From: Pyropia yezoensis
Taxonomy: Eukaryota; Rhodophyta; Bangiophyceae; Bangiales; Bangiaceae
Assembly (NCBI GenBank): GCA_009829735.1
Contig: CM020618.1
Span: 28,558,894-28,622,893, forward strand
DNA: 64,000 nucleotides
Reading direction: 5' to 3'
Part shown: positions 5,716-48,545 of the stretch, one piece after another
Layout of the letters: the number at the start of each line of letters is the position of its first letter
Numbering within the stretch: position 1 is the first letter of the stretch
The notes under the pieces: generated by a model
Seen by the model: only the letters and a program-made list of their open reading frames with translations
What the model was told of the DNA's origin: nothing
Database searches by the model: none
Program-made: the position numbers and the translations under genes

Positions 5716-8700
5716 TCAGGCGCCTAAAAAGGCGGCCGCCGGGTCCTCCCCGCCCGCCGCACCTCCCCCCGACGGTGCACCCAGGTAGTCCCAGTCATTG
5801 GCCGGCCCGTCGGAGCCCGCCGCGGGCGCCCCCGCCGGACCGCCCCCCTCCCCCGACCCCGCCGCCGCCGCCGCCGCCGTTTGTTCGCCGCTACCATTGC
5901 TTGCCGCCCCGTCGTCGGCGGCCGCCACCGCCGCGGCCTCCGCTGCGTCGGCCGCCGCCTTACCCGCCCGCCCACCGCGCCGCTTGGCGCCCGGCCCGCC
6001 CGTCCCACCCGCCGCAGCCGTCGACGACGACGACGAACCCCCGGCGGCAGCCGACGCCGACGACGAGGACGCCGCCCAGTCCTGCTTGGCGGCCGCCGAC
6101 TTGGACGCCACCTTTTTGCGCTCCCACGGGAGCCCATTGCCACCCAGACTGGGCACGGCCGACGCCCGCCGCGAGCGCATCAGGGCGCCCACGTCCACCA
6201 CCGCTCGGCCCGATGAGCGGGGGAGGGCCAGGCCGGCACCGGCAGTAGACCCACCGCCGCGACCACCGCCACCGCTGCTGCTGCCGCCGCCGCCACGGCC
6301 GCCGCCGCCACGGCCGCCGCCGCCACGGCCGCCGCCGCCGGGTGCGGCCGCTGACGACGAAGCGGTGGCGCCCAAGGACGGGAACGCCACCGGTGACACA
6401 CCCGACGACGCAGGACGCCTCGCCGGCGGTGCGGCGGCCGCCGCAGCCGCCGGTGCAGGCGGCGAGCGGCCCAATGCAAATGCAGCGACGGCGGCAGACT
6501 CGGCGGCGGCCGCCTCACGCCGGCGCTGCGCGGCGACCGCCTGCGCGCTCGGCGCCGGTGTGCCGCCCCACACCCGCCCCGCGGGACGCACGTCCGTCAC
6601 AGGGCGGGGGCCCGGCGCGGAGCGAGCGGGAGAGGCAGCAGCGGCAGCCGTGGAGGGGGTGGGCGCGACACCCCGGCCAGACGCGGACCGTGAGCCCGAC
6701 GCCGCTGCAACCGCGGCTCTCCCCACCGCGGAAGGGGTTGGCCCCGCCGGCATGCCGGGTGCAGGGGACCACGACGAGGGGGTGGGCGCCCGCCGCCCGG
6801 CCTGTGCGCCCGCTCTCGCCACGGCGGCGGCGGTCGGACGGGCCGCCGCCGCCGCCGCCGCAGACGGCCGCGCAGCCACCACCGACGATGCGCGCGCGGC
6901 TGCGGCCGCGGCCGACGATGGGGGTGGTCCCACTCCCGACCCGCGGCCGCTGCCGCCCAGCGGCGGGAAGTGGGCGGTGGTGGTCAAGTCGCGCTCCCGG
7001 TTGAGACGGTACGACGCGGTGGGTACCAGCGGCGCCGCAGGGCCAGCCGAGGACAAGGAGGCGCCCGCCGAGCCGCTCCCCCCGCCGCTGGTGCCATCGC
7101 CACGGGCAGCGGCGGCGGCAGCGGCAGCGGCAGCTTCCCGTCGCCGCGTGGCCGCCAGTGATGGGAACTCTGCGCGGGACGCCACCGACGGCGGGGCCGC
7201 GACGGGCGGAAAGGCGTTATCGGCGCCGCCACCCGCGGCGCCCCCAAACGCGTCGGGGTTGAACGGCGGCGGCGCGCCGCCGTCGGCGTCCGACTCGGCG
7301 CCCGAGTGGCCACCGCCGCCGCCGCCACCTCCACCGCGCCCACGCCCTCCAGCTCCACCACCACCACCGCTGCCACCACCGCCGCCGCCACCACCGCCGC
7401 CACCACCCCCACCGCGGCGGCCGGCACGGCGCCCCCCCGCGTCGTCCCCCCCACCGAGGCGCGCCGCCCCGGCCGGCGCCGGCGCAGCCTCCTCACACGC
7501 CACACACAGAGCCTCACGGAGGCCATCGTCTGCGGGTAGTAAAGCAGCCAGCTCTGGAAGGTAGGCGCCCAGGGCGGGCACCCGCCCAAACAGCTCCATC
7601 GTAGACGCCACGTAAGCGCGTGCGCCGAGGGCGCCCGACCGAAAGTCCCCCGACGCGTCGCGGAAGCGGGAGAAGGTGGCAGCATCGACAGCGCCGCGCA
7701 TGGACGCCACCAGCTCCCGGTTGCGGCGGGCCGCTTCGTCCGAGTTAGTGGGCGGGTGCCGCCGCTGGAACCCCCGCGCGAGAGATATGGGCGTCGGTCG
7801 GGGGGCGGGTGCTGCGGAGGAACCGTCCCCAGACGAGGCTGGGTGGGCGGGAGCCGCTGCTCGGTTGCCACCGCTGCCGCCATCGCTGCCGCCGCCACGT
7901 CCGCTCCCGCCGTCGCCGCCGCCGCGTCCTTGCCGCGCTCCGTCACCACGGCCATCTTCCCGCCGGTCGCTATCACGACCGCCGCCATCACGGCCAGCAC
8001 CCCCACCGTCACGGCCGCCACCATCACGGCCGCCGCCTCCCCCCCTCCGTCCCGCCGCGCGCCGCCGCCACCCCCGCCTGCGCCCCCTCTCCCACCCCCA
8101 CTACCACCCCCGCCCCCGCCCCCACCCCCGCCGCCGCCCGCTCCCCCACGGCCATGGGAAAAGACAACGTTGGCGACCGCAAAGTTGCGCCGCCGCCGCT
8201 CCCGCTCTTCATCGCCCGGCCCCCCCCGCCCTCCGTCCCGGCCGCTGCCAGCACCTACAGATCCGCCCTGGAGTTCAGACAGGTCCACCCGCATGCCGCG
8301 GCCGCGGTTCCCGCCCCCGCCGCCGCCACCAGCACCGCCCTGGCCGCCCGCCCCCCCCGCGGCCGCGCCATGCACCTGCATCTGGTGGAGGCGAAGGTCC
8401 ACTGGCGCGGCAAAGACGACGCCCCGACAGCCTTCTGCGGCGCACATGTAGTGCTCCACCCCGTAGTGGGCCTCGAGCGACGCGTAGTCCCGGTAGTACT
8501 CGTGGTAGCGCCCCGCCCGCTCACAAAGAAAGCACGAGTAGTGGTCGCGGGTGAGGTGGGCAAAGAGGGCATCCTCGTCATAAAGCTGCCGCCGACAAAA
8601 CTCGCACGCCGGGTGCGACCTGGCCGCGTGCGAGCGGCATGCCGAAGAGCCAGCGGCGCGCCCACGGCCATTGCTGTCGGCGCCGCCACCACCGCCACCG

Positions 8701-9512
8701 CCACCCCCCCGGTTCCCCCCCCCGTCCAACGGGTAAAGCACCTGCTCACAAATGTACGCCTTGCGGTGCGCCACACACACATCACACAGCACGGACCCGT
8801 GGGCGGCACGGACGTGGGAGCGGAGGCCACTCAGGGACGAAAAGCACCCCCCCGCATTGACCACCCGCGTGTCGGCTGTCCACACGGGCGCGTCCGGCGG
8901 CCGGCGGGCCTTCCCCCCCCCCCCCCCCCCCCCCCTGCACGGCGGGGCGTCCACCGGCTCGGCACCCGGAATGGTGGCCGCCACCGCCGGGTCAGGGATG
9001 GGGTCCCCAAACCCACACGACGGGCACGTGTGGGCGCGGCGGGCGGCCAGCTCCTCCCGCCGCGCGCCATCTACAAACCGCATGTGCACGGCCGGGTCGT
9101 CGGCGGCAGCGGCGGCGAGCGCCGGCGGCGGCGGCACCCCCGAGGCGGGCTCCCACACCCCCGCCGGCACCACCAGCACGTCGGTGGTGGGGGTCTTGCA
9201 CAGCACACACGCGGCGTCGGTGTAGAGGACGCGCAGCCGGTGGGAGCAGTCCCCGCAGATGGCGTGGCCGCACGGCGACGCCACCGCCCAGTCTGCCGCC
9301 TCGGTCGCACACACCAGGCACAGCGCGTCGGCCGGCACATCCGGGGCGGGGGGGAGGGGGGCTGGTTTAGGACGAGGGGGGGGGCGGGGAGGGGGGCGCG
9401 CCGACGGAGCGCCACCACCCCCACCCCCACCCCCACCGCCACCGCCACCACCACCGCCGCCGCCGCCACCACCGCCACCGCTACCATTACGCCCCCCCCG
9501 GCTGCGCACCAT
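5716..9512 (-). CDS. ZNF598/Hel2-type RING and zinc-finger E3 ubiquitin ligase
   Basis: The ATG is at 9512-9510 (MVRSRGGRNG) and the TGA at 5718-5716, about 1265 residues. After a Gly-rich leader comes a RING near residues 62-105 (CLVC...SPCGHAICGDCSHRLR...CVLCK). A run of C2H2/C2HC fingers follows (CPSCGFGD; FSSLSGLRSHVRAAHG; CEFCRRQLYDEDALFAHLTRDH; CAAEGCRG...LRLHQMQVHG), the ZNF598/Hel2 order. The family senses collided ribosomes and ubiquitinates 40S proteins to start ribosome-associated quality control. The far C-terminus keeps a family-like helical region (YVASTMELFG...LPELAALLP) after a disordered RGG/Ala/Pro middle. The frame changes by one nucleotide between about 8036 and 8110, within C/G homopolymers in the RGG region. 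No splice sites are evident, so I suspect an assembly indel. A 23-C run at 8913-8935 encodes poly-Gly without breaking the frame. Confidence 0.88.
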
Positions 9513-11578
9513 GATGGCGGGTGACACCTTCCACGAGCAAACAGAAGAAAAGAAAAGCACAAAAAATACGCACACAGCCGACAAGGGGACACCTGGCGGG
9601 GCAGCAGCTCTGTCACTGCGTAGGCAGAGGTTGGAGGGAGGGCGGGGGAACCGCAACGACGGCGGGTGATGGGCTGATCGGGGAGCCGCCGTCAATGGGG
9701 TGGGACGGTGGCCGCCCGGCGGGCTGTTCGATCGGGAACGGTGGGCGTGTGGCTGGGGCGCGGGGGAGACAGCCGTCAGCCGGGCAGCGTGAGCGACGGG
9801 CGGGGTGACGTGACGGCCGCGGTGGCGGGTCGGGGAGCGTGATGGTGCCGCACGACGCTGTGGGGGCGATGGCAGTGGATGCGGATGGACCACGGGGGGG
9901 GGAGGGGGGGTCGGCGGGTACCGTCTGGATCGTGCTGGCAAAGCGCGCACCGACGACGCCGATTTGGTGCCGTGGCGGTCCCCTCCCCGGGGCAGCTGAC
10001 GACGACACGCTTCAGACACGTGTCATTCATGGCAACAGGGACCCCCATTCGACTATTATTTGACAGCAGTCACGATGGATTGTATTTTACCAAGTACGAC
10101 TTGATCCGACTGTTGGGTAAAGAAAGCATCCCAGTGCGCACGAAAATGATTTTGTATCCCAACAGCAGCTTGTTGGGTCGGGTCCCCGCCCGACCTTGCA
10201 GCTGGTGCTGCTGACAAGGCCTGGTCGCCCTCATCCGCGGGAGGGAGGGAGTAGGTATGGGGGCTGCCTGCGGGGTGTGACCCGCACCACTGCCGCTGCA
10301 GGTCCCTTTCCCCCACCTCCCCTCCCCTTTGTGGCCGGCGCGGCGAGCCGCCGGCCTGCCCGCGGGCAGGCACACATACGCACGTCTGGCCGCCGGCCGG
10401 CCGGCCGCCGCATTGTGGTCACCACCTCGCACCAGCCGCATGGGGCCAGCTCCCCGCGCTCCCGCTGCTCCTCAACACCTGCGGCTTCCTTTTGGCGTTG
10501 CAGGTTGGGCGTGTGTCACTCACTGCTCCTCCCGGTTGGGGGGGGGTAGCAGGTCCTCGCGCACTGTTGATTGGTTGGTCCCGTGTTTTTTTCTTTCTTT
10601 TCGCAGACGGGGAGGGCGAGGAGGGGGGGGGGGGGGGGAAGGGGGGACCCGTGCCGCACCGTCTGGGACCCCCTCGCCTCCCTTTCTGGTAGCTGTAGTC
10701 TTGATGGTTGTAGAGGTGGCCGTGTGTCGTCCTGGCTACCCCGCCCCCCCTCCCCCCTGGTACGGCGGCGCTTCCAGTGGCGGCCCGCCTTGACGGCGGC
10801 GGGGGGTGGCGCAGCTCATTGGCCCCCCCGCGTGAACGGTCGGCTGTCCCCCCCCCCCCCCACCCCCCTCCCCCTGCCCACCGCATCCCCGCGGCCGGGT
10901 GCCTGTGCGGCCACCCGTCGTCCACCGGCGGCGGCACGTGGACGAGCGGCTGGAGCCTGTTTGGTGGTCGTCTCTTTCCCCTCTCGTCCCGCCCCCTTTC
11001 CTCCGCCCTTTTCCTGCCCGCCGCTCCCCCTCTCTCACCCTCCCCCGGTGACGCTCTCTCTATCCTCTGGTGGCTGCCGGCGGCGGGACGGAGCGTGCCG
11101 CTTCCACCCACGCCCGTGCCGGGAGACGGGACGCCAGCCCGTGGCTCGCTTCCGGAGGCTGGCTTGCGTGTATTGCAAACGGCGCGGGTGGGAGGGGTCC
11201 TACCCGGCTGTTGGTGGACTCCTCTGTGGGAAGGGCGGGGGGGAGGGGGTAAGCGTCGCACCGCCGCCGGCAACGCCCCGCCTCTACCTCGGGTCGGTCC
11301 GGAGGGGAGGGTACCGCCCGTTGATGGGGTGTCGGGTCGACCCGTGCCCTGCACGTCTCCCCGTCTGCGGCGCCGGTGCGCACCACCCGCTATCCGCCGT
11401 TGCGTTTGTCACTGCCGACGCTGCGGCGTCGTGGTCCCCCGGGGAGGGGTGAGGGGTGAGGGACACCTCTTGGCCGCAACGCTGCCGCGACGCCGTTGAC
11501 GGGCGGCGGTGGCGGGGGCGGCGGCGACTTTGGTGGGGCTTCCGTGCCGGACGCGTCGGTGCCGGCGGCCAGCGTGCA
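9513..11578. other. divergent intergenic region between the ZNF598-like and lipase genes
   Basis: It carries the 5' leader of the minus-strand ligase gene, a distinctly lower-GC island at about 10030-10190, then GC-rich low-complexity DNA up to the lipase start. The island encodes in one plus frame a short, non-repetitive peptide (see findings). A perfect hairpin sits in it. Long open frames at 10419-11354 on the minus strand are Pro/Arg/Gly composition artefacts. Confidence 0.5.
10158..10177. repeat. perfect 7-bp stem hairpin
   Basis: cccaaca (10158-10164) and tgttggg (10171-10177) are exact reverse complements with a 6-nt loop. It lies in the lower-GC island of this intergenic region; gttgggt also occurs nearby around 10112. 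Confidence 0.6.
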
Positions 11579-14182
11579 ATGGCGCACGTTGACGACATCC
11601 AGGCGGTAATTGGGGACGAGGGGGCCTACGGCCTGGGCAGCCCCGACGATAGCGTCGTTGACGAGCACACGGCGAGCGTCGGCGGCTCGGCGGCGTTGCG
11701 GGCACCCAGAGAGGAGCGCCTGCCTGGCTTTGAGGGCGAGAAGGGCCTCAAGGCGGGGGCCGGCGGGGGCGACATCCATGACGATGACGAGCGCTTTTCC
11801 GTGCACAGCGGCTCGGACGGCGGGAGCGAGTCGGACAATGGGGAGGAGACGCTCAGCCTCAACCTGCCGCAGCGGCAGTACACCAAGCTGGAGGCGGTGC
11901 AGGCGCGCCAAATTGACCAGCTCCTCCGGTGGCACCACTTTGTGTGCGCCATTGGCGTTGGGTACACGCTCGTCTTTATCATCCTGGCCAACACGGTGTG
12001 GCTGGATGTGAGGCCCCCAGACCCAGAGGAGGGCTTTGTCAATGGTCTCCGCTGGTTCCTCGTGCCCCGCGGGGTGCTGTGGTACTTTCAGGTGTCGGTG
12101 CTGGTGCTCTTCTCCCTCTCCACGCTCCTCTTCATCGTCTTTACGCAGCGGATTATGCGGCTGAGCCCGCGGGACCGGACGCCCGAGCAGCGGTGGGTGA
12201 TATTCCTGCTGCTGTCGCTGGCCATGTACCTCAACCCCTTCCAGGCGTCTTACAAAATCCACGACCAGCTGCTGAACCGGTTTTCGCTCTCCTCCTCCCG
12301 GTGGGCATCGCAAGACTGGTTTGACAGCGTCTCTCGCATCTTTACGGTCGTCCGCTCCGTTGGCTTCACTAGCGCCACCGTCTTTTACGTGTGGGCGTCG
12401 GCGCATTCGTACCGCAAGCTGGACGGGAAGCTGGGCTTTTGGTTTTACGCCCCCAAGGTGTTGGTCATTGCCCTGTACATTGCGCTCAAGATTGTCATCA
12501 TCTACGCGTTTGACTGCATCCCCGCAGAGCTGCTGCTGGGCTCCTTTGTGGGGATGCTCAGCCTGTACGCGGCGGCGGGCTGGTGGCCTCTGCGCGGCAT
12601 GATTGGCGCGGCGTTGCTCTCTCTGTTTGAGCTGGGCCTCCTCGTGTGGGTCGCGCTGCAGATCCTGCAGACCAAGGCGGTGCTGAAGAAGAGCGACTAC
12701 ATGAAGTACCGGCTGCAGCAGGTCGGATTCCGTTTCTTCCTCTACCACAACCTCACGTTTTACCTCATCTTTTGGGTACTGTACGTGATGCAAGTGACGG
12801 CGCTGCCGCAAGCCGCCAACGTGTGGGTTTACGTTCTGTTCCTCATCTCCAACTGGGAGGCGCCCGACGTGGGCTTTGGTTTCAACCTGCTGCTGCTGGC
12901 GTACGTGGTGGCCGAGGCGTACGTGAACCTGCCAGTCGATGCGCTCGGCTTCAAGGGCTGGTTCACTCCGCAACAGCCCCGGTCTGCGGCCCAGACGGAC
13001 ATCCGGCCGATTACGTACCGCAAGCGGGAGCCGCCCAGCTTCCACGGTGCCATCCATGACCTGTCGGGCAGCTGCTTTGTCATGCAGACGCACGTGGTCA
13101 TGTTCAACTTTTCGTGGTTGGTCTACTACTGGGGGACGCCCAAGATGGAGAACCTCGGCGCCGCCGCCAGCGTCAACGTGGTGGACTACATCACAGACAA
13201 GGAGACGGACACCCACGCGCTGATCATTGACGGCTCGGACCGGCTGATTGTGGCGTTCAAGGGTACGACAAGCGCGCAGAACCTCAAGACGGACCTGCGG
13301 ATTTCGCACATGCGCGCGTCTGGCCTGCTGCCGACGCGCCTGGGTGGCGAGTTTGCCGAGGACGATGAGCGCACCCGCGCGGCGGCGCTCTTTCAAACCC
13401 GCCAGTGGAGCAAGGCGCAGATCCACAAGGGCTTTGCCAGCGCCTATGCGTCAATTGCGCCGCGGCTGATTACCAAGCTGCAGCTCCTGCTGAAGGAGCG
13501 CCGCCGCCCAGTCTTCCTCACCGGCCACTCGCTGGGCGGCGCGCTGGCCATGATCTGCAGCTTTGACGTGCACACCCGCTTGGGGCTCCCCGCCTCGGAA
13601 ATCCTCGTCTCTACTTTTGGCGCGCCCCGGGCGGCCAATGAGGCGTTCCGGTCGGTGTATGACAGTGAGGTGCCCACCTGCTGGCGGGTGGTGGTTGGCC
13701 CTGACGTGGTGGCCAAGCTCCCCAAGGTTGGTTACAAGCACGTGGGGAAAAAGGTGCTCCTGACGCGCGACGGGGAGCTCTTCCTGGACCCCAACTCCCT
13801 CGAGCTCAACCTGTGGTCGGGAGACGCCGCGTCCTTCCTTTACCACCGCAAGGCCAGCTACCTCCTTGCCATGCGCGCGTGGTGCACTCGCCACCACGGG
13901 ACGGGGTACAAGCCCGAGTTCATGCCCTTCCCCGTCTCGGCCGACGACTCGCGGCGGTTTGACCACGCGCTGACGCGCAAGAAGGGGGAGGTTGCGCCCG
14001 CCGAGGTGGCCAAGCGCACCCGCCTGCTCGCTGAGAATGCGATGATTGAGCAGCTGACGCAGGCCCGCCCCGTGTCGGCACAGGTGCTGCTCAACTGGGC
14101 GCTGCTCACACAACGGCTGCGGGAGCGGGAGGAGCGGGGGGAGCACCAGGAGATCGTGGCCGACGACATTGTTGTCGAGTAG
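11579..14182 (+). CDS. multi-pass membrane class 3 lipase
   Basis: I chose MAHVDDIQAV at 11579 over an open but Arg-rich upstream extension, giving 867 residues. An acidic cytosolic-looking N-terminus (about 100 residues, with DDDE and SDGGSESDNGEE) precedes eight or nine hydrophobic segments, e.g. CAIGVGYTLVFIILANTVWL, VSVLVLFSLSTLLFIVF and VLVIALYIALKIVIIYAF. The C-terminal half is a lipase_3 alpha/beta hydrolase. It has the oxyanion strand IVAFKGTTS, nucleophile elbow GHSLGG (Ser651), a GPDVVAKLP block with acid Asp709, and probable catalytic His756 (YHRKASY). This predicts hydrolysis of acyl-glycerol lipids at a membrane, as in DAG lipases. The motif LLLSLAMYLNPFQ within the membrane part followed by FYVWASAHSYRK recalls the Wntless/TMEM181 seven-helix family. 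Localisation (ER, Golgi, plastid or plasma membrane) cannot be read from sequence. Confidence 0.88.
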   Translation: MAHVDDIQAVIGDEGAYGLGSPDDSVVDEHTASVGGSAALRAPREERLPGFEGEKGLKAGAGGGDIHDDDERFSVHSGSDGGSESDNGEETLSLNLPQRQYTKLEAVQARQIDQLLRWHHFVCAIGVGYTLVFIILANTVWLDVRPPDPEEGFVNGLRWFLVPRGVLWYFQVSVLVLFSLSTLLFIVFTQRIMRLSPRDRTPEQRWVIFLLLSLAMYLNPFQASYKIHDQLLNRFSLSSSRWASQDWFDSVSRIFTVVRSVGFTSATVFYVWASAHSYRKLDGKLGFWFYAPKVLVIALYIALKIVIIYAFDCIPAELLLGSFVGMLSLYAAAGWWPLRGMIGAALLSLFELGLLVWVALQILQTKAVLKKSDYMKYRLQQVGFRFFLYHNLTFYLIFWVLYVMQVTALPQAANVWVYVLFLISNWEAPDVGFGFNLLLLAYVVAEAYVNLPVDALGFKGWFTPQQPRSAAQTDIRPITYRKREPPSFHGAIHDLSGSCFVMQTHVVMFNFSWLVYYWGTPKMENLGAAASVNVVDYITDKETDTHALIIDGSDRLIVAFKGTTSAQNLKTDLRISHMRASGLLPTRLGGEFAEDDERTRAAALFQTRQWSKAQIHKGFASAYASIAPRLITKLQLLLKERRRPVFLTGHSLGGALAMICSFDVHTRLGLPASEILVSTFGAPRAANEAFRSVYDSEVPTCWRVVVGPDVVAKLPKVGYKHVGKKVLLTRDGELFLDPNSLELNLWSGDAASFLYHRKASYLLAMRAWCTRHHGTGYKPEFMPFPVSADDSRRFDHALTRKKGEVAPAEVAKRTRLLAENAMIEQLTQARPVSAQVLLNWALLTQRLREREERGEHQEIVADDIVVE

Positions 14183-16319: not shown

Positions 16320-19300
16320 ATGCCGCCCGCGTCGCCGCGACCGCGCGTACCACCAGGCGCCGACGATGGGGGCCACCATCTTCGGTCGGGGAACGGGCTG
16401 AGCCCACGGCCGCATTGCGGTGGTGTCGTCGGCGGCGGCGGGGCGGGTGGGGGGGTGGGCGCCGGCGGGGGCGCGGTTGGCGGCGGGGGAGTGGCGCACC
16501 CACTCTCCTCAACGGGTGGGGCGCACCCACTCTCCTCAACGGGAGGGGCGCACCCGCTCTCCTCAACGGGAGGGGCGCACCCACTCCCTTCATCGGGGGG
16601 GGGTGGCGGCGGCTGCGGCGGCGGGGATGGCGGTGCCGGCGGGGACAGCGTCGGAGTGACGCCCTCGTCCCCAGGTGCCCCCGGCACGGGGGTGGGCCTC
16701 GGAGGTCTCGACGCGGTGGCGGTGCCGAGTCCGCGGTCCGCCGTCGAGGCGGCTTTGCGCGCAGCCGCGGCCGCGGCGGCAGCGGCCGCTGCCGCTGCCG
16801 CGGCTGCGGCGGAGCGGTCTCCCCGGTTGCGGTCGTCGTTGCCGGCCTGTGCGCGGCGGCCGTTGTTGCATGGCGTGACTCCGCCCGCAGCCGGGCCGGG
16901 CGGCGCTGCATCAGGTGGCGGCGGCAGCGGCGGTGCGGCGGCGGCGGCCGCGACGACGGCGGCGACGGCGGCCGTGGCGGCAGGGGATGGACCTACCGAG
17001 GCGGCGGCGGCCGCCGCCACGGCGGCTGTCCTGGCCGAGGCTGGTGGCCTGCTTTCGCGACTAAGCGTCCCCGCCAGCGAGCACCGCCTGTCGGGCGGAA
17101 AGCAGGGCGGCGGGGAGGAGGACGCGGCGTCGGTGGCCTCGCCGGCGTCGTCCGTCGCGGCGGCGGCGCAGGTGGCTACAACGGCGGCTGCCGCGGCCGT
17201 GACGGGGGTGGCGGCAGCTCTGGCGCGCCCCGATGAGACAGATGCGGCGGGTGCGGCCGCAGCGGCGGACTCGTCGCTCGGGGGAAGAGCGGGCGTGGCA
17301 GGGGCGCCCGCGGCCGCATCGACGTTGTCGCCGGCGGGGGATAGGCCGCCGCCGGCCGCCGCACCGGCGGTGAGTGCGGTGGCTCCGCCGCCGGGGAGCG
17401 GTGCTGCCGTCTCCTCGGTGGGTTCCCCGTCTGCCTCTGGGATAGGTGGCGACGGTGATGCGGTCGGCGCAGATGAGGCGGGGGCGGAGGAGGACGCGGA
17501 AGAGGAAGAAGTGCCTGTTGGAGTGGGGGGCTGGGCCAAGGACGGCACGTGGACAACGCGGGAGGTCACCAACGGCGCCCTGGTGCTGAGTGGTCTTAAG
17601 CTTGTGGCGGTAGAGTTGGGTGGTGTGCCCGAGCCGAAGGCGCTGCGTGAGCTGTCCCTCGCCTCCAACGCCCTCACCGAGATTGACCTGACGCCGCTGG
17701 CCCTGTGCCCGTCGCTCGAGGTACGCGCTCTGGCTCGGTGTCAGAGACACAGCTGAGATGGGGTGGGGAGTCCTGCGGACGAGCTGCATTGTTTTCTACG
17801 CTATTGATGCGGGCGCGTTTCATCTGGTGGACAGGCGTCCCGTGATGTCAGTGCGTCACGTGAGGCACGTCAGCAGTCGTGCATCTGTCGTTGTTCTTAC
17901 GCTGACCCTTCTTTGCTCGTGCCACGCTTATGTTTCTCACTGTCATTTCCTGTGTGTCTGCTCCACTCGTTCATTTGTGTGCTTTGTGTTCCTGTGCTCT
18001 GGGTGCTTGTATCGGTTGTCAGGCGCTCGTGCTCAACGCGAATGAGCTTACCACGATTGACCTGACGCCGCTCGCGGCTTGCCCCAAACTGGAGCGCCTG
18101 TGGATGCATAACAACAAGCTGCGGACCGTGGACCTGACAGCGCTAGCGAACTGTCGTGGCCTGCGCTCTCTCTACCTTGACGGCAACGCGTTGCACGAAA
18201 AGTCTGTGGTACTGGCCCCGCTGGCCGCCTGCCGCCTGCTGCGCTCCCTTCGGTTGGGCCGCAATCGCTTGGGAGGGGAGCTGGACATTTCGTGCATGCT
18301 GTCGGCCGCCGCGCTGTCCACCCTAGATGTGTCCCCAACTGTGACGCTTGTGGCCCGTATTACTGCCGAAACGTCCAACGCGTCATCGGCGGCGGCTGCA
18401 CTGCCGCCTGCGCTGCGCCGCAAGGCCGCGTCGGTGGTGTGGCGGCAGGATGACTCCCCGCCGCGCACTCCCGACCCCGAGTCCCCGAACGAGGCGGAGG
18501 CGAGTGATGTGTCAGGGACATTGTCAGTGGACTCTCAACCCTTCGGTGCATCCGTCACAGCAGCTACCTCCCGTGTCGTGACTGCTGAGAAGTCTGTGGC
18601 CAATGGTCATCTGTCTCTGGCATTGCCATCCGTGGGCGGTGCTGACTCACCGCCGTCCCCACCATCGCGTTCCTGCTCCTCACTCGATAATCACATCATG
18701 GACAGTCCAGAGGTGTCTTCGGCCGATGGCGCCGCTCTTACCGCCCATGTCAAGGCCACGAGCCCACCGGCGGTCACTGCTGGTCGTGGCCGCTCCCCGC
18801 ACTCCCCGCGGGCCGTGTGGCCCGGTGGCGCCGGTGGGAGCTCTACGCACAGCGTGTCGAGCGTCAGCAGCTCTGGTTCGGCCAGTGCCGGGGGGGGCGC
18901 CGCGCCGCCGCGCAAAGTTCGCTTTTGCGTGCTGCTGGCGGGCTTTCGCGGCACCGGCCATTATGGGGTGGAAGCGCTGCTCGAGGAGAACGCCGACGTT
19001 GGCACCTCTTGCCTACCAACTGCAGTGCTTGAGTCGCAGGAGGCCTTGTCCCTTGTGCCCGCCCATGTGCACGTGGTGGTGGTGGGAGTGGAGCCTTGCA
19101 CCGAGGCCCTGATCATGGCCCTCCGCGCCGTGGATGCGACGGTACCCATTGTCATTGTGGGGCGCACTGATGCGTCTGCGGACGCTGCGTCGCGGTGCCT
19201 ACGACGCGGGGCGTCGTGCTTTTTGACGCAGCCGCTCAGCGGCCGTGACGCCATCACTGTGCGGTCATTGGCGCAGAAGCGTGCGCGGTCGGTGCCATCG

Positions 19301-22059
19301 ATTCGGCCCGACTTGCTCGTTTGGGAGAAGCTGCGCGCCCGCTTCTCCCCGTCGGCACAGGCCAGCTCGCCACCGTCGCCGCGCCCGTCTGGTCTGGTGG
19401 ATATCGCGCGTGATATTGTGTCGGCTTCGTCGCCCGCCGTGGTCACCGGTTCAGCGCCACCACCTGTATCGTCGTCGTTGGCATCTCCACCATCTGTCAC
19501 CGCGACGCCTCCGTTGGCGGCCCTGGCGTCGTCGTCGACGCCGCCCGCCGTGGCTTCATCGCCCGGTTCCTCTCCCCCCCCATCGTTTGGCGGCGTCAGG
19601 AGGCGTGCGCCGCCTATGAACGGCTCGGCCAGCTCAGCCGCAGGACACACACGTCGGGTCGTAGCCAATGGCCGCACCGTCCCCGGTGTGGGCGGCGCGC
19701 ATCGGCAACGGGCTACCGCCCCGCCGGCCGTCATTGTGCAGGCGGCGGCTCCAGTGATCGACTTTGACGCTCTCCGCACCCGAGCCTTGCGGCTAGCGCA
19801 TGGTGGTGGCAACAGCCCGAGTGGCACAAACCTTGCCGCCCGTGCGCGGGTGGAAGAGTCTGCCCTGCGTATGATGTTTTCGCGCTGTGGTGGGGCAGCG
19901 GGCAAGTCGGCGTTTCCCTCCATCGCCACCCTCTGTGGACTCCCTGTGTGTGCGGCGGATGCGTTTTTCCACGCTGCTCGCCGTCACGCAGCCGCTGCTG
20001 CGGCAGGCGGCGGGCGCCTCAACGGGTATGCCAATGGGGGCGGCGCTCTACCAGGGGGGTTGGTGAGGCCCATGGCGTCTCCGTTTGGGGCCTGCGTCGC
20101 GTCTCGAGCACCCTCCTCCGGGTCCGTTATGCCAGTGGCTTCCCCCGACCGCCCGGGCAAGGAGCGTGTCACTTATGCCGCGTTTGGGGCGTTTTGGCAG
20201 GACCAGCTGCGCGAGCGCGACGCAGAGACACGCCTTTTCAACGTCCTCCGTGACTCGCCTACTGCGCCCGCCGTTGCGGCGCCTGCGGTCGTGACTGTGG
20301 TGCGGGCGCTGGTGGCTGCCAGGCAGTCGCGTTCGGGCTTGACTGGCGGTGGCTGGCGCAGCCTACCCACCAGCCGCAGCGCGTCGCCCGTCGGCGGCGT
20401 GTCTTTGTCATCCTCTTCCTCCAACTTACTGGCGGACGCCGGTCGCGGCCTCGGCAGTGGGGGAGAGGGCGCCGGGCGGTCTGCCGAGAAGGCACTGTCC
20501 GCAACAGAGGAGGCGGACGTGGCCGCCGCGCTCGTCCTCTACGCCATGCGCGGCTCCCGTTGGAGTGCGTTGCGGCTTCGCGACTTTCGTCGCGCCGCCC
20601 TGTGTGCGGGACTGCTGTCGGCGGAGAGCGGTGTGTACGCGGGTGCGACGGCGGGCCTCAGGTCTGACCGCATTGTCGAGGCACGCCGCGCTTTTGCGGA
20701 CGCACTCGCGTTGGCTGACGATGGCTGCCACGGCGGTGGTGGCGGCGGCGACGGTGGTCACCCGACGCCGGGACGGCTGCTTTACCACCCGCAGATGGTG
20801 GCGTACAATGCGCAGCGGGGGCTGCTGACGTCTGCGGCCGTGGATGCCGTCTTCGCGCGGCGTGGCGCGCCGTCGCGGACGGCCAAGCGGAGGCAGCGTC
20901 GGGTCAAGGCCGCCCGTTCTGCCACCCGCGCGGGGCTGTCTGTTAGCGTCACGGCCACGCCGTTGAAGATGCCGCGGTGCCCCAACGGGGTGCTGGAAAA
21001 GGCGTTTTCCGCTCCCGCGGCGCCGTACGAGGGCGCAACTCCTGACCTCCATTGCCCTGCCATTACGTCCTTTCCGGGCTCGGTGTGCGGCTTGGACGAC
21101 CAGGCGCATCTGAGCAGCTCAGAGATTCTCAGCAGCTCGGACGAGTCGGACCCGCCGGCGGCAAACGAGGTGGCCAAAGGCGTCGGCCTGGACATTGCGG
21201 AGTTTGCCGTGTTTTGGACGGCCACCCAGGACGCGGCGACGCGCTCCGCGGCCGAGTACTTTTTTGACCTACTTGACGCGGACCTCGACGGCGCCCTAAC
21301 GGCGGCCGACGCGGCCCACTTTTACGCTGACAAGCGGCGGCTGATGCGCGCCGAGGGGCTCGAGCCTGCCGCGTTCGGTGACGTGTGGCACTACGCCACC
21401 GACATGATGCTGGCTGCAGTCGGGGGTGGGGGGCGTCCCCCACCGGGCCGCCCCGACGCGCCCTCGCTGCGGCCGCCAGGTGGTGGCGTCGGCGGCGACA
21501 GCAGAATACGCACCGAGGGGACGCCCGGCTGTTGGGCGGGCTGGCCGCCGCGGGCGCCCCCCTCGCCACCCCCCCCGACCGCGGCAGCGTCGGCGGCGGC
21601 TGTGTCGTCGGTTGCGGGCGGGTGGCCCCCCCCCCGGCGGCCCGGCGGGCGGCGCGACGGGCTCTTCCCGCCCGAGGCCCCCCCCCCCCCCCTCTGGCTA
21701 TCTCGCTCCCCCACTTTCGGGCGGTCGCGGAAAAGGATCGCAGCGACATCCTCCAGGCGCTGCTCTGTCGCGAAGACAATGGCGCGCTGGTGGACCTCCG
21801 CAAGACGAGCGAGCGCGCCGGCACCGTCGCCGCGGTGGGCCCGGCCGAAGCGGGCGACGCGACAGAAGTGGCGGCCGCCGTCGACGGCGCCGCCGCCGCG
21901 GTGCCTACGCCGGCGCCGGCGCCGGCAGTGGCCGTGGGGCCTGGCGCTGCGGCGTCGGCGGCGATCGACGCCGACGCGGTTGGCGGTCGTGGCTGGGGCG
22001 TTGCGGGAGGGGTGTCACCGGACGCGGCGCTCGCTAATGTGCCACTCGAGGGCGCGTAG
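16320..22059 (+). CDS. LRR / pseudo-receiver / PP2A B''-like EF-hand protein
   Basis: Exon 1 is 16320-17720 and exon 2 starts at 18023. The intron (17721-18022, GT-AG, phase 0) joins PSLE to ALVLNANELTTIDLTPL and restores a leucine-rich repeat. Order: Ala/Gly/Ser-rich N-terminus with four HPLSSTGGA-type repeats; about five LRRs (residues 430-570); Ser/Pro linker; receiver-like domain (765-885, RFCVLLAGF to LTQPLSG); then a C-terminal region resembling PP2A B'' (PR72/TON2) subunits. The B'' features are VTYAAFGAFWQDQL, an EF-hand loop DADLDGALTAAD (from residue 1552), HFYADKRRLMRAEGLEP and ISLPHFRA. The receiver lacks the phospho-Asp and has Gln for the KP lysine, so it is probably not phosphorylated. 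The last part (ISLPHFRA to the stop at 22059) is in another frame. The change occurs at or near a 15-C run (21678-21692), from an indel or an unrecognised intron starting near 21426. Inferred role: a calcium-linked PP2A targeting subunit. Confidence 0.75.
16493..16600 (+). repeat. 27-bp tandem repeat, four copies, coding
   Basis: The unit ggcgcacccactctcctcaa plus cggg(t/a)gg is repeated from 16493, 16520, 16547 and 16574. The last copy is more diverged. It encodes GAHPLSSTG-type repeats in the LRR protein N-terminus. Confidence 0.9.
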
Positions 22060-22636: not shown

Positions 22637-24327
22637 TCACATCCCCCCTGCCACAAGCCACCGCGCGGCGGCCATCACGCGGCGCGCCCCCCCCAGCACC
22701 ACGTGCACCGGCAGCGGCGGCACGCCCGCCGCCCACGCCGCCCGCAGCGGCGCGGTGACCGCGTCGCCCACCACTGGCGGCAGCGCATAGGCGCTGACGC
22801 GCAGGCGGGCGGGGCCGACGCCCAGCTCGCCGCCCATTGTCATCGGCGCGTACAGGCCGCGGCGGTGGGTGAGGCGCGTGGCGGTGACCACCCAGGTGGT
22901 GGTGGTGGTGGTGGAGGAAGGGGGGGGGGGGGGGGGGGGGCGGCGCACAAGCCCACCGACGCCAGCGCCGCTGTCCACGGCGACCCGCCCGCTGACGCAG
23001 ACGCGGACGCTGCCGCCATGCCGACGGCAGCGGCGGCGGCGGGTGGGGGGTGACCACGTGGGGGGGGACCACCCGACACCAGCTGCGGCGGCGCCATCCC
23101 TGTTAGCGTGTCGCCCACCACCACTGCGTCGGCGCGGCGCCAGCCGCCGCCGACGGCGAGGTAGTGGCCGCCAGTCAGGACCAGCTGCTGTGCCCCCCAC
23201 GCGGCCGCCGCCCCCGCCGCCGACGCGTTGCCCCCCGCCGCCGGGACGGCGGTGAGCGCCACAAACGGGTACACCCCGGCGGGGGTGGCGTGGCCAAACG
23301 CGTAGACGGGGGACCAGCCGCCCGCGCAGGCGGCGCAGGGCAGCTCGTCGCCCGGCCGCAGCTCCTCCATCCGCGCCACCCCCCCCCGGCGGCCACGGAC
23401 GGCAACGGCAGCGTCGGCGGGGAAGCACTCGTAGCCCCACCGGGGGTTGGGCGTCGGCGGCGCCCGCGGCGCGGGCGGCAGCGTCTCGACGGGGGGTCGC
23501 CCCGCGGCGGCGGCCACGGCCGCCGGCGGCGGCCGCCCGTCTGACCCCTCCGGCCGCACGTACACACAGGTGAGGCCCGACGGGTGGACCACCCACACCG
23601 CCGCTTCGCCGCGGGTGAGGGTGAGGCCCAGGCCCGGCGCGTCGACGGTGTCATTGCCCAGCCGGAGGAGCACCGCCACCGCCCCGCGGGGGAGGAGCGG
23701 CGCCACCGCCGTCGGCGGGCACCACACCGAACCGTCGCGCGCGACGGCCACGTGCATATCGAGAAAGTCAATGCCCTGCAGCACCCGGTACGCGCCGGAG
23801 CTCGCCACCGCAATGGCGTAGAGGTCTGACACGCCCGCCGCCGCCGCCGCGGCGGGCGACAGCACCGCCGCGCGGGGGGCAATGTGGAGCCCCACGGCGG
23901 TGCCCGCCGTCACGGGGCCGCCGCCGGTGCCGGGCCCTGGGGAGGGGGCGGCCGGCGCCACCCCGCACGCACCCCCATCGGTGGACAGCGCGTGGGAGGG
24001 GAGGAACGAGACGCCCGGCCGGCCCGCCGCGTCGGTGGTGCCCTGCAGCGTGACCGAGGTGGCTTGGCAGGCGAGCGGGAAATTCGCCGTCGCCGCCCAG
24101 TAGGTGGTTGCCGCGGCCGCTAACGGGTAGGGCTCCTTTGTTGGCTCCGCGTCCAACGCTGTGGCCTGCCGGCTGGTGGGGGGGGGGACGCCGCCGCTGC
24201 CACTGCCGCGCCCACCGCCGTGGCCAACGACACTGCCGCCACGCCCGTCGCCGTTGCCCACCGCAGCTGCCGCGGCCACGGCAATTGCGACCGATCCCGC
24301 CACCACCACCACCACCACCGCCGCCAT
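22637..24327 (-). CDS. Hint (hedgehog/intein) autoprocessing-domain protein with signal peptide or anchor
   Basis: The start at 24327 (MAAVVVVVVAGSVAIAV) gives an immediate signal peptide or anchor; the frame stays open upstream to 24693, so a longer type II form is possible. Residues about 30-300 are an unrecognised, presumably lumenal or extracellular domain with several cysteines. At residue 301 a hedgehog-type Hint begins: ECFPADAAVAV with catalytic Cys, MEELRPGDELPC, LVLTGGHYLAV (T-x-x-H), and at the end GLYAPMTMGGEL, a hedgehog C-terminal strand motif. Such domains cleave at their own Cys by N-S acyl shift and thioester chemistry. The upstream frame runs into a 21-base homopolymer (22920-22940) and the C-terminal part continues in another frame to a stop at 22637. 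With low complexity on both sides, an indel in the run is the simplest explanation. No lipid-acceptor domain is recognisable. Confidence 0.78.
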
Positions 24328-26097
24328 GCGTCGCGTCGCAGCTGCCGGCCCTCGTCCGCCCACGACCGCTGGTGCGCCACTGGGATGACCGCGGCCTCCA
24401 GTGTCGCCAACGGTACTGCTGCCGCCGCTGCTGCCACCGCCGCCGCCACCACTGCCGCCACGGTCATCGGTAGTGGCGAAAGCCGAATCCACGGGGCAAG
24501 CAGCCACCGTAGCAGCTGCGTCTGCCCCTCTCAGCCGTTCCGCCCTGACGCTCCCCCCCCCGTCTCGCATGCCGAGCCCTTCTATTCCCATCACGCCCTG
24601 ATGGCGGCGGCGAAAGAGAGGGAACTGGAAAGGCCGGGGAAGCGGGGAGAAGGACAGAAGGAAGAGAGTGAATGGGAAGACAAGAAAGAACAATGCAGGA
24701 GCGCCTGGCCACGCCGCGTGGCGTTGGGAAAAGTAAAGTCAGCAAGAGCGCAGCAGAGGCAAGCGAACGCCACAGGGTTGAGATCGATTCCCTGTGCGCG
24801 GGCCGTGGACGTCTCGACGGTAGGGAGGCAATGGCGGTGGCCGGTGCCCTAGACGGTGGAGGTGGCGATAGCGGCAGCGCAGGTGGAAGACCACCAACCC
24901 CCTCCAGGCGAGCTCCCTCGAGGCGAGCTCCGCCCAGGGTCGCAGCCTCCAACGCCTGGGACGACGGGTGCCGGGCCCGTGCGGACCCCCAATCCCACAG
25001 CCGCCACCAGAACAAACACCCCCCCCCCCCTCACTACACTTCCATGTTACGTGCCGCACACCGTTTTCTCGCCGCTTGCGCTCTGTCTGCCTCCCTCGTG
25101 TCCCCCCTTGCAACCGCACTCGTTCTCTCCCGCCGCGCCCCTGGCGTCGAACGTGCGCGCGTGCAACAACAATTCATGAGCCGCCGCCGCTGAGGTTGCT
25201 TCTCTCGGCGGCCCGGCGCTCCCTTAGCAGGTCCTCATGGCCATCCTGGCGGCCATCATCGTAACGGATTGCATGCGCCCGACGAAGATTCAGGAGGGGA
25301 GGGAATGTGGGTGGGGAAAGGCCGGGTGGGGGGAACTGCGGGGGGAGGATGAGTGAGCTGAGAACGGCATCATGAAGAGGAGGTGGAGCAGAGAGGGGGA
25401 AGTGGCCGCACCGTCTTGATGAAGAAGGGCGCGGCCGGGGGGAGCGGCCGCACGCTGGCGGGGTTCCACCGAGAGAGAGGGGATGTGTCATGAACTGCTC
25501 CACACGTGGTCGCCGTGTCAGGGGGGCAGATGCACTGCCCGCGGTCCTGCATCCTCCCCCGCTGCACCACCGCGGGACTACAGGTCTACGGCGGTGCACA
25601 GTGCGTGGCGAAACGGATCAGTGGTCGTCTCGCGCCGGGCCGACGCCCCCTGTGCATCTCGTCAAATCTTGATCGTGACGCTTCACCTGCCTCTGACAGA
25701 TCTTCATGAAATTACATTAAAGGACGCTCGATTGGAGTTGGGTACTGTACCTTCAGCCGCAGTGCCCTTCCTATATTTGGTCTCCCGAGGACCGACCCGT
25801 TTTTTGCACCGTTTCGTCTCGCCTTGGCTTGTCCGCGGTCCGACCGCCTCCCACCACGATCCGCGTACGATCGGTTCCCTGCCGGCGCGTCCCCCTCCTG
25901 CCCCCCCCCCCCCCCCCCTCCCCGCTCCCGCCCCCACCTCAGCCCCCGCCTCCCCGCCACAACCTTTCGCGGTGCGCCGCCCCCCTCCCCACCCCCTTTT
26001 GTGTCTCATCGGTCGTCACCGCCATCCCTGTCGCGCTCCCCGTGTGCGGCCGTCTCTGCGCACGGTCCCGCTTCCTACCTCCACTCCCCCTCCCCCC
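24328..26097. other. divergent intergenic region between the Hint and TUTase genes
   Basis: It includes a purine-rich stretch (24600-24740), a duplicated ggcgagctcc element near 24907/24922, a lower-GC island around 25680-25780 that may be a TUTase promoter, and C-rich DNA before the start. A plus frame ending at 25193 contains a signal-like peptide (MLRAAHRFLAACALSASLVS) but no further domain, so it is not called. Confidence 0.5.
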
Positions 26098-42262: not shown

Positions 42263-43158
42263 CCCACCGGCCGCCCCCCCCCGCCGCCGTCCGACTTGGT
42301 GTTCGCCGCCAATCACCGCTTGGGGACGATACCGCGACGCGCACGGTGAAGGGAAGCACCGGCAACGGCCGCGCCGGGGGGTCTCTAGAGAAGAGAGGGC
42401 CCCGCGTCAACATTCACGAAGCAACGACGGAGCGAGGCAACAGCACGCACCTGAAACACGGTACCACCGGCCGGGGTTGGCTGACGTTGCCGGTGGGGGG
42501 GCCAAGGCAGGCCGCGGGAGGGGGCGGGCAGATGGACGGGCCGGCACGACGGGGGGGGGGGGGGGGGGGGGGGGCGGGCGGGGGGGAGGGGAGGGGGGAA
42601 GGCGGCGGCGAGGTGGGCGGGCGGAGAGCACGCAGCGCGGCAGCCGGTGGACCACGCACGTCGCGCTGGCCGGCGGCAGCGACGGCGTGTCGCGGCGCGC
42701 CCAAGACGGAACCGCGCGCTGTCGCGCTGGAGCGCGACCCGGCTGGCGCCCACCCCCCCGCGCAGCGACGGCGCCGCCGCACGAGCAGCGGCGAGCGCGC
42801 GCGTGCGGGGCCCGCCGTCCGCCGGGCCAGATCATATCCCCCCGCGGCCTCTCACTGTGATGGACCCGTCGGCGGGCGTCGCCGCGGCTGTGGCAGGTAG
42901 TCACCTGGCGGCACCTGGCCGAGGCGCGGCCCGGTTGCCTCAAGGGACGGCTGGGCCCGGAGTGTACGTATACATATTTGTATGGCACCGTTATCCCAGT
43001 TGAAGCATGACAGTATGAGCCAATCATATGCTGTTATTTCAAATACTAGCCAATGGCGTGTCGTGGTTACTTCTAATCGGTTGTGTTCCCATTTTACCTC
43101 ATTTCAATTTTGGGTATGTTGTGAGTGGACACTCGATAGATACCGCTCGAGGCGACGG

Positions 43159-43184
43159 GCCAGGCCCGGTTAACCGGGCCTGGC
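43159..43184. promoter_or_regulatory. perfect 26-bp palindrome
   Basis: gccaggcccggtt (43159-43171) is followed directly by its exact reverse complement aaccgggcctggc (43172-43184), with no spacer. It lies at the edge of the lower-GC island upstream of the methyltransferase gene, and could be a dimeric transcription-factor site or a cruciform. Confidence 0.7.
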
Positions 43185-43343
43185 GGTTCTACAGCGGACG
43201 CCCAGTATCACATACGCAGATTCTGCTGCGTGGGCAACCCCAGCGCCATCGTCAATCCCTCCGCCGCCTCATCCCCCCCTCTCCCTTCTCCCCTCCGCCT
43301 CCCCCTCGCCCCCCCGCTTGATTGCCTTTGCGGGCGCAGTGCC

Positions 43344-43873
43344 ATGTGCGGCGCCGCCGCGTGGGCGCCGCCCCCCCCGTCCAACGCCACGGCCGCCGCG
43401 CTCGGCCTGCGGGGAGCCGCCGCCGCCGCCTTTGCTGCGGCGGCGGCGCGGCCAGCCGCCCACCGCCTGCCGCCCCTGCGCCGCGCCGTCGCCGCCGCCA
43501 CCGACGCGCAGCCGCGGAGTGGCGTGCCGGGGGGAGGGGGGGGGGGGCGCTGGCACGTGACGGCGCCCCTGGCTGCGGGGGCGGCGGCTGGTGGGGCGGG
43601 CGGCGACGGCGGAGGTGGCGGCGGCGGTGGTGGTTGGGGCGGCGGCGGCGGCAGCGGGCGACGGACCGCGTCGTCGTCGTCAGCGGCGGCGGCCGCCGCA
43701 GCGGCGGCGGCCGCAGACGGGGAGACGGTGGTAACGTCGACCCAAAACGGGCGTGTCAAGTCCATCCGCCACCTCCTCCGCCGCCGCGTCAGGGAGCGGG
43801 AGGGGCTGCTGCTGCTCGAGGGCCACCGCCTGGTCGCCGACGCGCTGGCCAGTGCCGCTGCCAGGGACAATGA

Positions 43874-43904
<31 letters not shown>

Positions 43905-44636
43905 AGCGGCCCCATCCACACCATCCTTGCCACCCGCGAGGCGGCGGCGCGGCTGGCGCCCGCGCTGACCGCCGCCGCCGCTGGCGTCCCCCCCGGGGCG
44001 CTGCTGGTGGCCACCCCCGAGGTGGTTGCCTCTGTGTGCGACACGGTCACGCCCCAGGGGGTGGTGGCGGTGGTCGGCCGCCCCACCGGGGGCCTCCCCC
44101 CGCCCCCCGCCGCCGGGGACGACACCGGCGCCGACGGCGCCAGCCTCCTCCTCGCCCTCGATGGGGTGGGCGACCCGGGGAATGTAGGCACCCTGGTGCG
44201 GTCTGCTGCCGCGGCGGGCGCGGCGGGGGTGGTGCTGACCCGCGGCTGCGCCGACGTGTGGTCGCCAAAGGCGCTGCGGGCGGGCATGGGCGCGCAGCTG
44301 CGGCTGCCCGTCCAGGCGGGCCTCGACGCCCCCGCGGTGGTGGCGCTGGCGCGGGAGCGGCGGCTGGCGCTCCGCGTCGCCGATGGGGGGGGCGGGGTGC
44401 CGTACGATGGGGTTGACTGGCGGGCGCCCGCGCTGCTGGTGGTAGGGGGGGAGGCAGCGGGGCCGTCGGCGGAGCTGCTCGCCGCCGCGGATGAGGTGGT
44501 GGCCATCCCGCTGTTGGGGGGGGTGGAGAGCCTCAATGCTGCCGTTGCGGGGAGTGTCGTGCTGTACGAGGCACGGCGGCAGCGGTCGGCAGCGGGAGTG
44601 TCGGGGGGGGGGGCAAGCGGCGCACCCGTTTCGTGA
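43344..44636 (+). CDS. SpoU (TrmH/RlmB) 2'-O-ribose RNA methyltransferase
   Basis: The first ATG is at 43344 (MCGAAAWAP), giving 430 residues. An Ala/Arg-rich N-terminus without acidic residues looks like an organelle transit peptide, followed by a Gly-rich spacer. A SpoU substrate-binding domain begins near residue 130 (VTSTQNGRVKSIRHLL, EGHRLVADAL). The SPOUT catalytic domain follows with all three motifs: DGVGDPGNVGTLVRSA (motif 1, near residue 273), LLVVGGEAAG (motif 2) and IPLLGGVESLNAAVAGSVVL (motif 3, near 388). It should methylate a ribose 2'-OH in rRNA or tRNA using SAM; similarity is to bacterial TsnR/RlmB-like and organellar MRM enzymes. The exact nucleotide cannot be stated. It is convergent with SEC23. 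Confidence 0.9.
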
Positions 44637-47324: not shown

Positions 47325-48545
47325 GGCGATGGGGCGGCAGCCGCGGCGCGCGCCGGCGCCACGTGCGTAGACGAGCCCCGCAGCTGGCAAGAGACGGGAA
47401 GAGGGGGATCGGTGGTGCAACGCGGGTGTGCGCGTCCCGCTGTCCGCAGAGGTGCGCCTGCCAGGGCGGGCAACCGCACCGAGTGCCCCGAGCCTGTCAC
47501 ACCAACGTCGGTGTGCGCACCGACCGACAGTCCCGCCCGCGAAGACGCGCCTGGTAGGCACAACACGGACCCGCTCGCTGTCCTTGTCGTAAATGTTCCA
47601 ACGCTGTCAGCAGAGCGAAAAGAGTGGCCCGAGGAAGTACAGTATTGTACGTGGCCAACTATATTGGTCCGCCAACTCAAAACAATTATACAGTGGACAC
47701 AAGAAACATTGTCCTCAACTTAGCCGATGGTTTCATCGTCATCACCATCGCATGGCGCGAAGCGCTGGGCAGCCGTTTCAACTCGGGCGAGCCCCTCCGC
47801 CCCATCCGCTCCGGCTGTGTGTGTACACTTCCCGCCACTTTTGACGACCGCCCGGCACCCAGACGATCTACCCGCCCGCCCGTCACAACGGGCCGCTTGG
47901 CGGGATGTGGAAGCCGCGGCGGGCTTTCCCCCCCACCCCGCCGCGGCGACGCCGCCGGCCGGCGGGCACACCCCCTACCAGCAAGCTTGCCAGGGCGGCG
48001 GGTGGGTGTCGGTCGGTACTCTCCCTGCGGGCCGCCCGCGCGCCTGTGCCGGGGCGTGTGCAGGGAGCGTGCGCAGGCTTCGGCCGCGAGCGCGGCTGGG
48101 GGGGGGGGTGGTGACAGCGCTTGGGCACGTCCCAAGCCATGCGTGGCCCCCTCGCTTTTTGCCGGTCCGTCTGTCTACCTGCGAGCTCGGTGTCGCCCTG
48201 GTTGTGTTCACGGCAGACCTCCCCCCCTCGGCTGCCGCCGCTACCCCGCGTGACGACGTCGCTGTGCGCTTGACGACATCCCCTCGACCCCCACCCGTGC
48301 GGCTAGTCATTCAATCCCCCTGTCCCCCCGTGCTCTCCACCACGCTCCTCGTGCGTGCCCCCCTCTCGTAGCTCGCCGCTGTTTGACTGGTTCATCTCCC
48401 CACCCCCTCAGCACCCCTCTTCCACCCACGCCCTCGTCCTGTGCTCCACTCCCCCTTCATTTCTTGGTTGGACCGCACGTCTCGCTGGCCCGCCATCCCA
48501 CACCCTCGGCCCTTCCCCCCCCCCCTCCCTCCCATCTCTGCCACG
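47325..48545. promoter_or_regulatory. divergent region between SEC23 and the BAR-protein gene
   Basis: It contains an AT-rich island at about 47630-47760 (e.g. acaattatacagtggacaca), about 300 bp upstream of SEC23, followed by GC-rich DNA towards the BAR gene. No conserved coding sequence; a plus-strand open frame through the island is not supported. Confidence 0.45.

Follow-up and report, generated by a model that had tools for sequence, protein, structure and literature searches.

A Pyropia yezoensis gene predicted to combine leucine-rich repeats, a putative pseudo-receiver and a diverged PP2A B''-like core

The window analysed in the present work is a stretch of 64,000 nucleotides from the red alga Pyropia yezoensis (G000:C1:28558894-28622893), and the genome searched for relatives is the 107.5-Mb assembly, whose three large contigs have lengths of 43.6, 34.3 and 29.4 Mb. 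The gene under study lies on the forward strand, and its features are collected in Table 1. Several other genes can be recognized in the window. Upstream, at 11453-14179 (+), there is a predicted membrane protein in one frame, in which a Wntless-like transmembrane part (a weak match at 0.0042, below the cut-off) precedes a class 3 lipase (2.2e-24), and at 6987-10022 (-) a RING and C2H2 zinc-finger protein, with a match to the ZNF598 RING model that falls under the cut-off. A large frame adjoins the gene on the other side, at 22843-24738 (-). It gives nothing in Pfam at E<=0.01, and its stretch CFPADAAVAVRGRRGGVARMEELRPGDE resembles by eye a Hedgehog-type Hint domain. Further downstream are a SpoU/MRM3-type rRNA methylase (43140-44633, +), Sec23 (44973-47606, -) and a frame that matches multicopper oxidase twice (56566-59262, +), the order of the two matches seeming to be swapped relative to the usual one.

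Table 1. Predicted features of the gene, in positions of the window.
Feature	Position	Strand	Remarks
Exon 1	16320..17720	+	First ATG of the open frame; GT at the end
Intron 1	17721..18022	+	GT..AG, 302 nt
Exon 2	18023..21479 (end approximate)	+	LRRs, linker, putative pseudo-receiver, linker, B''-like core with EF7
Probable intron 2	21480..21676	+	CAG/GTGGTG..CCCGAG/GCC, phase 1; candidate GT-AG sites, predicted from sequence
Exon 3	21677..22059 (start approximate)	+	End conserved within the B''-like family (LAISLPHFRAVAEKDRSDILQALLCRE..), low-complexity tail, stop 22059
LRRs	17571..18358	+	Five of about 24 residues and one degenerate flanking repeat; split by intron 1; limits by eye
Putative CheY-like pseudo-receiver	18914..19294	+	Residues ~765-891; phospho-acceptor Asp replaced by Gly, KP Lys by Gln
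PP2A B''-like core	19835..21427	+	Homology to PP2A B''; enlarged by low-complexity insertions
Predicted EF7-type calcium loop	21275..21310	+	DADLDGALTAAD; no second 12-residue loop in the protein matches the search pattern

The first exon encodes an Ala/Gly-rich low-complexity N-terminus, an acidic stretch, a degenerate repeat and the first full leucine-rich repeat (LRR). The G+C content of intron 1 is 55%, compared to about 68% in exon 2 and about 77% in exon 1. The two exons flanking it match adjoining LRR parts of a paralogue elsewhere in the genome, called L012 here (query residues 14-86 and 78-217), and for the exon 1 part, which corresponds to residues 14-86, the identity is 43% with an E-value of 0.008. 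After splicing, the LRR region of the window can be aligned with L012 over 157 codons at 57% identity, and no gap is visible by eye where the exons meet. The coordinates given in the original prediction, 16320-22059, are right, with the ATG at 16320, the GT-AG intron at 17721-18022 and the stop at 22059.

The long frame that begins at 18023 stays open to 22156, and the stop at 22059 and the conserved tail ISLPHFRAVAEKDRSDILQALLCREDNGALVDLRKT are in a different frame from the B'' EF-hand. A join over 21480-21676 is compatible in phase by frame arithmetic, and the joined sequence reads through. The frames would also be joined by a shorter variant starting near 21426, or by an indel error in the run of C near 21678. 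Another option considered was that the change of frame ahead of exon 3 reflects a true lesion in a decaying, non-functional copy of the gene, as the different frames of the EF-hand and the conserved tail could suggest. We consider this very improbable. Phase-matching GT-AG sites exist, and the tail is conserved: the exon 3 piece matches the C-terminus of L012 with a blastp E-value of 2e-5, a score that none of 1000 shuffles reaches. Moreover, codon positions 1 and 2 differ less often than position 3 between the window gene and L012 in all five regions compared, although the difference is small for the N-terminal B'' piece (0.49 and 0.51 vs 0.55).

The G+C content of P. yezoensis has been given as 65% overall and 71% in coding sequence (PMC7423979), and the values of 63-82% that we find per 2-kb step of the window fit these figures. 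Because long open frames are cheap at such a G+C content, the length of a frame is no proof of a gene. We accept the gene as one unit because it is conserved. L012, which is located on contig C2, another of the large contigs, has the LRRs, the pseudo-receiver and the B''-like part in the same order in a single 2041-codon frame, and it is chiefly this copy that supports the single fused protein proposed originally. That two adjoining genes have been misread as one would be in line with the low-complexity linkers separating the parts, but it is hardly credible given the order in L012 and given that, in the window itself, a single open frame of 1416 codons holds most of the LRRs, the pseudo-receiver and the B'' part as far as EF7.

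The LRRs are the part that is best kept between the two copies, with 58% identity over 115 residues, and here 29% of the second and 52% of the third codon positions differ. About five repeats had been proposed, and five can indeed be seen by eye. The HMM search confirms their nature, since the exon 2 part matches LRR_8 (1.2e-8, 35 bits) and LRR_4 (1.2e-6, 29 bits), both above the Pfam cut-off of 27.

We now consider the middle domain. Comparison of the two copies indicates that this receiver-like stretch is a real conserved domain: the region 18899-19312 has 33% identity to its counterpart in L012, with a blastp E-value of 5e-5 and a score reached by 0 of 1000 shuffles. Its assignment to the receiver family by sequence is weak, and is the least certain of the three domain assignments. 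For the window copy, the Pfam matches OKR_DC_1_N (0.036) and Response_reg (0.1) are both under the cut-off, and NCBIfam gives two response-regulator models at 0.07 each. In a phmmer search of PDB sequences (E<=10), with the best E-value being 0.026, 8 of the 11 matches are chains that we take to be receivers or receiver-like. In Pfam, the L012 copy gives OKR_DC_1_N at 0.12, with an unrelated viral model ranking better (0.098); it gives neither Response_reg in Pfam at E<=1 nor any match in NCBIfam. A profile made from the two middle domains finds no receiver at E<=1. Over the whole genome, the sole Response_reg match at E<=1 is another locus, L020 (G000:C6:7606-7863), which may be organellar or bacterial.

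An AlphaFold model of the middle domain, made without an alignment, has an alternating order of strands and helices at low confidence (pLDDT 48, pTM 0.43). With this pLDDT-48 model, Foldseek places the receiver-like domain of CpaE at the top (8.5e-4), followed by many receivers, and AmiR is also in the list. The structure aligner VIA-align 2, on the other hand, puts receivers level with GTPases, reductases and decarboxylases, and does not separate them from other Rossmann-like folds. The structure prediction that had been suggested for these residues points to a receiver in one comparison, while the low pLDDT and the second aligner keep it from being specific.

The phospho-acceptor Asp and the conserved Lys are absent from the alignment of both copies: the window gene has Gly and Gln instead, and L012 has Gln and Asp. 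Here the two positions are our own placement relative to those of CheY. The degenerate receiver of the original prediction therefore stands as far as the two replaced residues of the window copy and a plausible fold are concerned, but the Response_reg model itself is not matched above its cut-off. It is possible that the domain has another Rossmann-like fold and no receiver relative, as could be argued from the weak Pfam and NCBIfam matches, from the lack of Response_reg in L012, from the receiver-free two-sequence profile and from the level ranking by the structure aligner. We find this unlikely in view of the Foldseek result, with CpaE and true receivers at the top, and of the chains, taken to be receivers or receiver-like, that dominate the phmmer matches. 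With moderate confidence, then, the middle domain can be regarded as a pseudo-receiver. Since neither copy has the phospho-acceptor or the Lys, phosphotransfer is not expected, and a CheY-like fold lacking the residues for phosphorylation would be read as a protein-interaction module.

The C-terminal part is related to the B'' subunits of PP2A. The motifs AFWQDQL, DADLDGALTAAD and HFYADKRRLMRAEGLEP, cited originally in favor of this, are all present. Against solved structures, the piece 21179-21430 matches PR72 (4i5j) with an E-value of 1.4e-7 and then the PR70 chains, above all other EF-hand proteins. A profile of five paralogues places the three B'' sequences between 5e-12 and 2.8e-11, while the best EF-hand chain that is not B'' is at 3.8e-5 and most calmodulins are near 0.02 among the matches listed (60 of the 171 at E<=1). 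On 4mew, the segments of this profile are collinear with the chain: the first is at residues 22-94 (i-Evalue 0.76), the second, without significance, at 141-174, and the third, that of EF7, at 239-309 (2.7e-7). In the same way, hhalign of the family profile with the canonical B'' of this genome, L015, gives an E-value of 9e-9 and a probability of 95.7 over 90 columns around EF7.

When the window gene is compared singly with the canonical B'', the EF7 lobe gives a score that 0 of 1000 shuffles reach. In the same kind of comparison, no resemblance is found for the N-terminal B'' piece (527 of 1000 shuffles reach the score) or between the exon 3 tail and the canonical end (791 of 1000). These two pieces are linked to B'' because of the weak profile match and their place in the protein. 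A structure comparison with a single-sequence model of the EF7 lobe found no EF-hand match. In the HMM check, none of the Pfam B'' models matches the window gene, and the same is true of three shorter relatives (L013, L014 and L016); L012 gives P2R3B_EF-hand at 0.046, which is under the cut-off but agrees with the N-terminal portion of the core. Taken together, the sequence comparisons establish that the EF7 lobe descends from B'', with weaker support for the same origin of the rest of the core, and to this extent the proposed B''-like region is borne out.

The family was sought by a six-frame search in which the best candidates were scored, and the counts are therefore lower bounds. The B''-like set comprises the canonical L015 and at least five divergent copies, which are the window gene, L012, L013, L014 and L016. 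In a genome search with PF17958 (EF-hand_13) at E<=10, the single match is L015 (6.6e-23). A search with the canonical core finds itself, then the window gene as the best other relative (2.5e-5), L014 (2.9e-4) and, weakly, L013 (0.088); L012 and L016 were not found in this search. Among the five divergent copies, LRRs and the middle domain could be detected in the window gene and L012 only. In L013 (G000:C1:9113578-9115596), L014 (C1:32620313-32622613) and L016 (C2:32232840-32234699), which are shorter, no LRR or receiver was detected, and they have one EF7-type loop each and a common conserved tail, [KR]EREFxLCALLVRRVD.

By the loop pattern, each of the five divergent copies has exactly one 12-residue calcium loop, located at EF7, which with L015 makes this loop intact in 6 of 6; in the window gene its position 12 is Asp, as in L015. 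The EF5 loop, judged by the loop pattern, is lost in all five, while L015 keeps both EF5 and EF7. The calcium sensing proposed originally is thus supported only in part, by the EF7 loop and not by EF5. Likewise, the IPxFY motif before the core is found by pattern in L015 only, and is absent in 5/5 divergent copies. We take this motif to be the hydrophobic scaffold-binding motif of human B'' (PR70 residues 125-129).

For human B'', tight binding to the scaffold has been reported, with none seen after EGTA, the authors adding the caveat that the calcium-free protein aggregated (PMC4090178). In the same report on human PR70, EF5 and EF7 bind calcium, and the stretch 105-129, which holds the hydrophobic motif, adds to the affinity for the scaffold (PMC4090178). 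The P. yezoensis genome has scaffold-type HEAT matches (2.7e-17 and 5.3e-14), and a PP2A partner therefore probably exists.

On this basis, the most likely function of the window gene, to which we give a probability of about one half, is that of a PP2A regulatory or targeting adaptor, in which a diverged B'' core with a single EF-hand loop is combined with LRRs and a pseudo-receiver. The B''-like core would dock on the A/C phosphatase core, calcium would alter its shape or its binding through the one remaining EF7 loop, and the partner or the place would be chosen by the LRRs and the pseudo-receiver.

The loss of the IPxFY motif and of EF5 makes a different scenario a serious rival, namely that the protein derives from B'' but lost its role in PP2A after duplication, and now acts as a scaffold that responds to calcium and binds other partners through its LRRs and pseudo-receiver. 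We regard this as possible, at clearly less than even odds. Both elements are gone from every divergent copy and kept in the canonical one, the B''-like core carries large insertions, and PF17958 does not detect it. However, the EF7 lobe is recognizably that of a B'' and not of a generic EF-hand, and the loss of the motif is judged by pattern alone, so that another segment could bind the scaffold. A broader proposal, which we make tentatively, covers both the PP2A adaptor and the PP2A-free scaffold: in the Bangialean red algae, a class of regulators of their own may have arisen from B'', and its LRRs and its pseudo-receiver, similar to modules of bacterial signalling, would steer PP2A or a calcium scaffold free of it. 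The two LRR-bearing and the three shorter copies would then form one lineage-specific family.

The specificity of PP2A comes from its B subunits. If the present protein directs PP2A, a B''-type core with recognition domains of its own would represent another way of targeting, unlike the known ones to our knowledge. That no such combination of LRRs, pseudo-receiver and B'' is known, as had been stated at the outset, agrees with our full-text literature search, in which none was found. The sequence searches covered PDB chains and the P. yezoensis genome itself, and other algae may therefore carry the combination as well. In any case, one canonical B'' and five divergent relatives, of which two have LRRs and pseudo-receiver, constitute a small and testable family in an economically important seaweed.

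Finally, we compare the protein with known systems. With PR72/PR130 and PR70 (PPP2R3A, PPP2R3B) it has in common the homologous core, the EF7 calcium loop and the helix region that follows, whereas it adds the LRRs, the pseudo-receiver and long insertions, and is without EF5 and IPxFY. FASS/TON2 and PPP2R3C (B''-gamma) are likewise B'' subunits, and may resemble the window gene in this respect. FASS complexes are described as being targeted to microtubules (PMC10112911, PMC4090178). BAS (BASELESS) of the brown alga Ectocarpus is another B'' protein, and it is said to be disordered in one region and to have two EF-hand domains (PMC10112911). For the putative pseudo-receiver, the systems to compare with are CpaE, which is the top Foldseek match, AmiR, which is in the same list, and the plant PRRs, with which the CheY-like fold would be shared. 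Plant PRRs are pseudo-receivers, and all three of these are degenerate. What sets the window protein apart from them is that its pseudo-receiver is joined to LRRs and to a eukaryotic EF-hand core.
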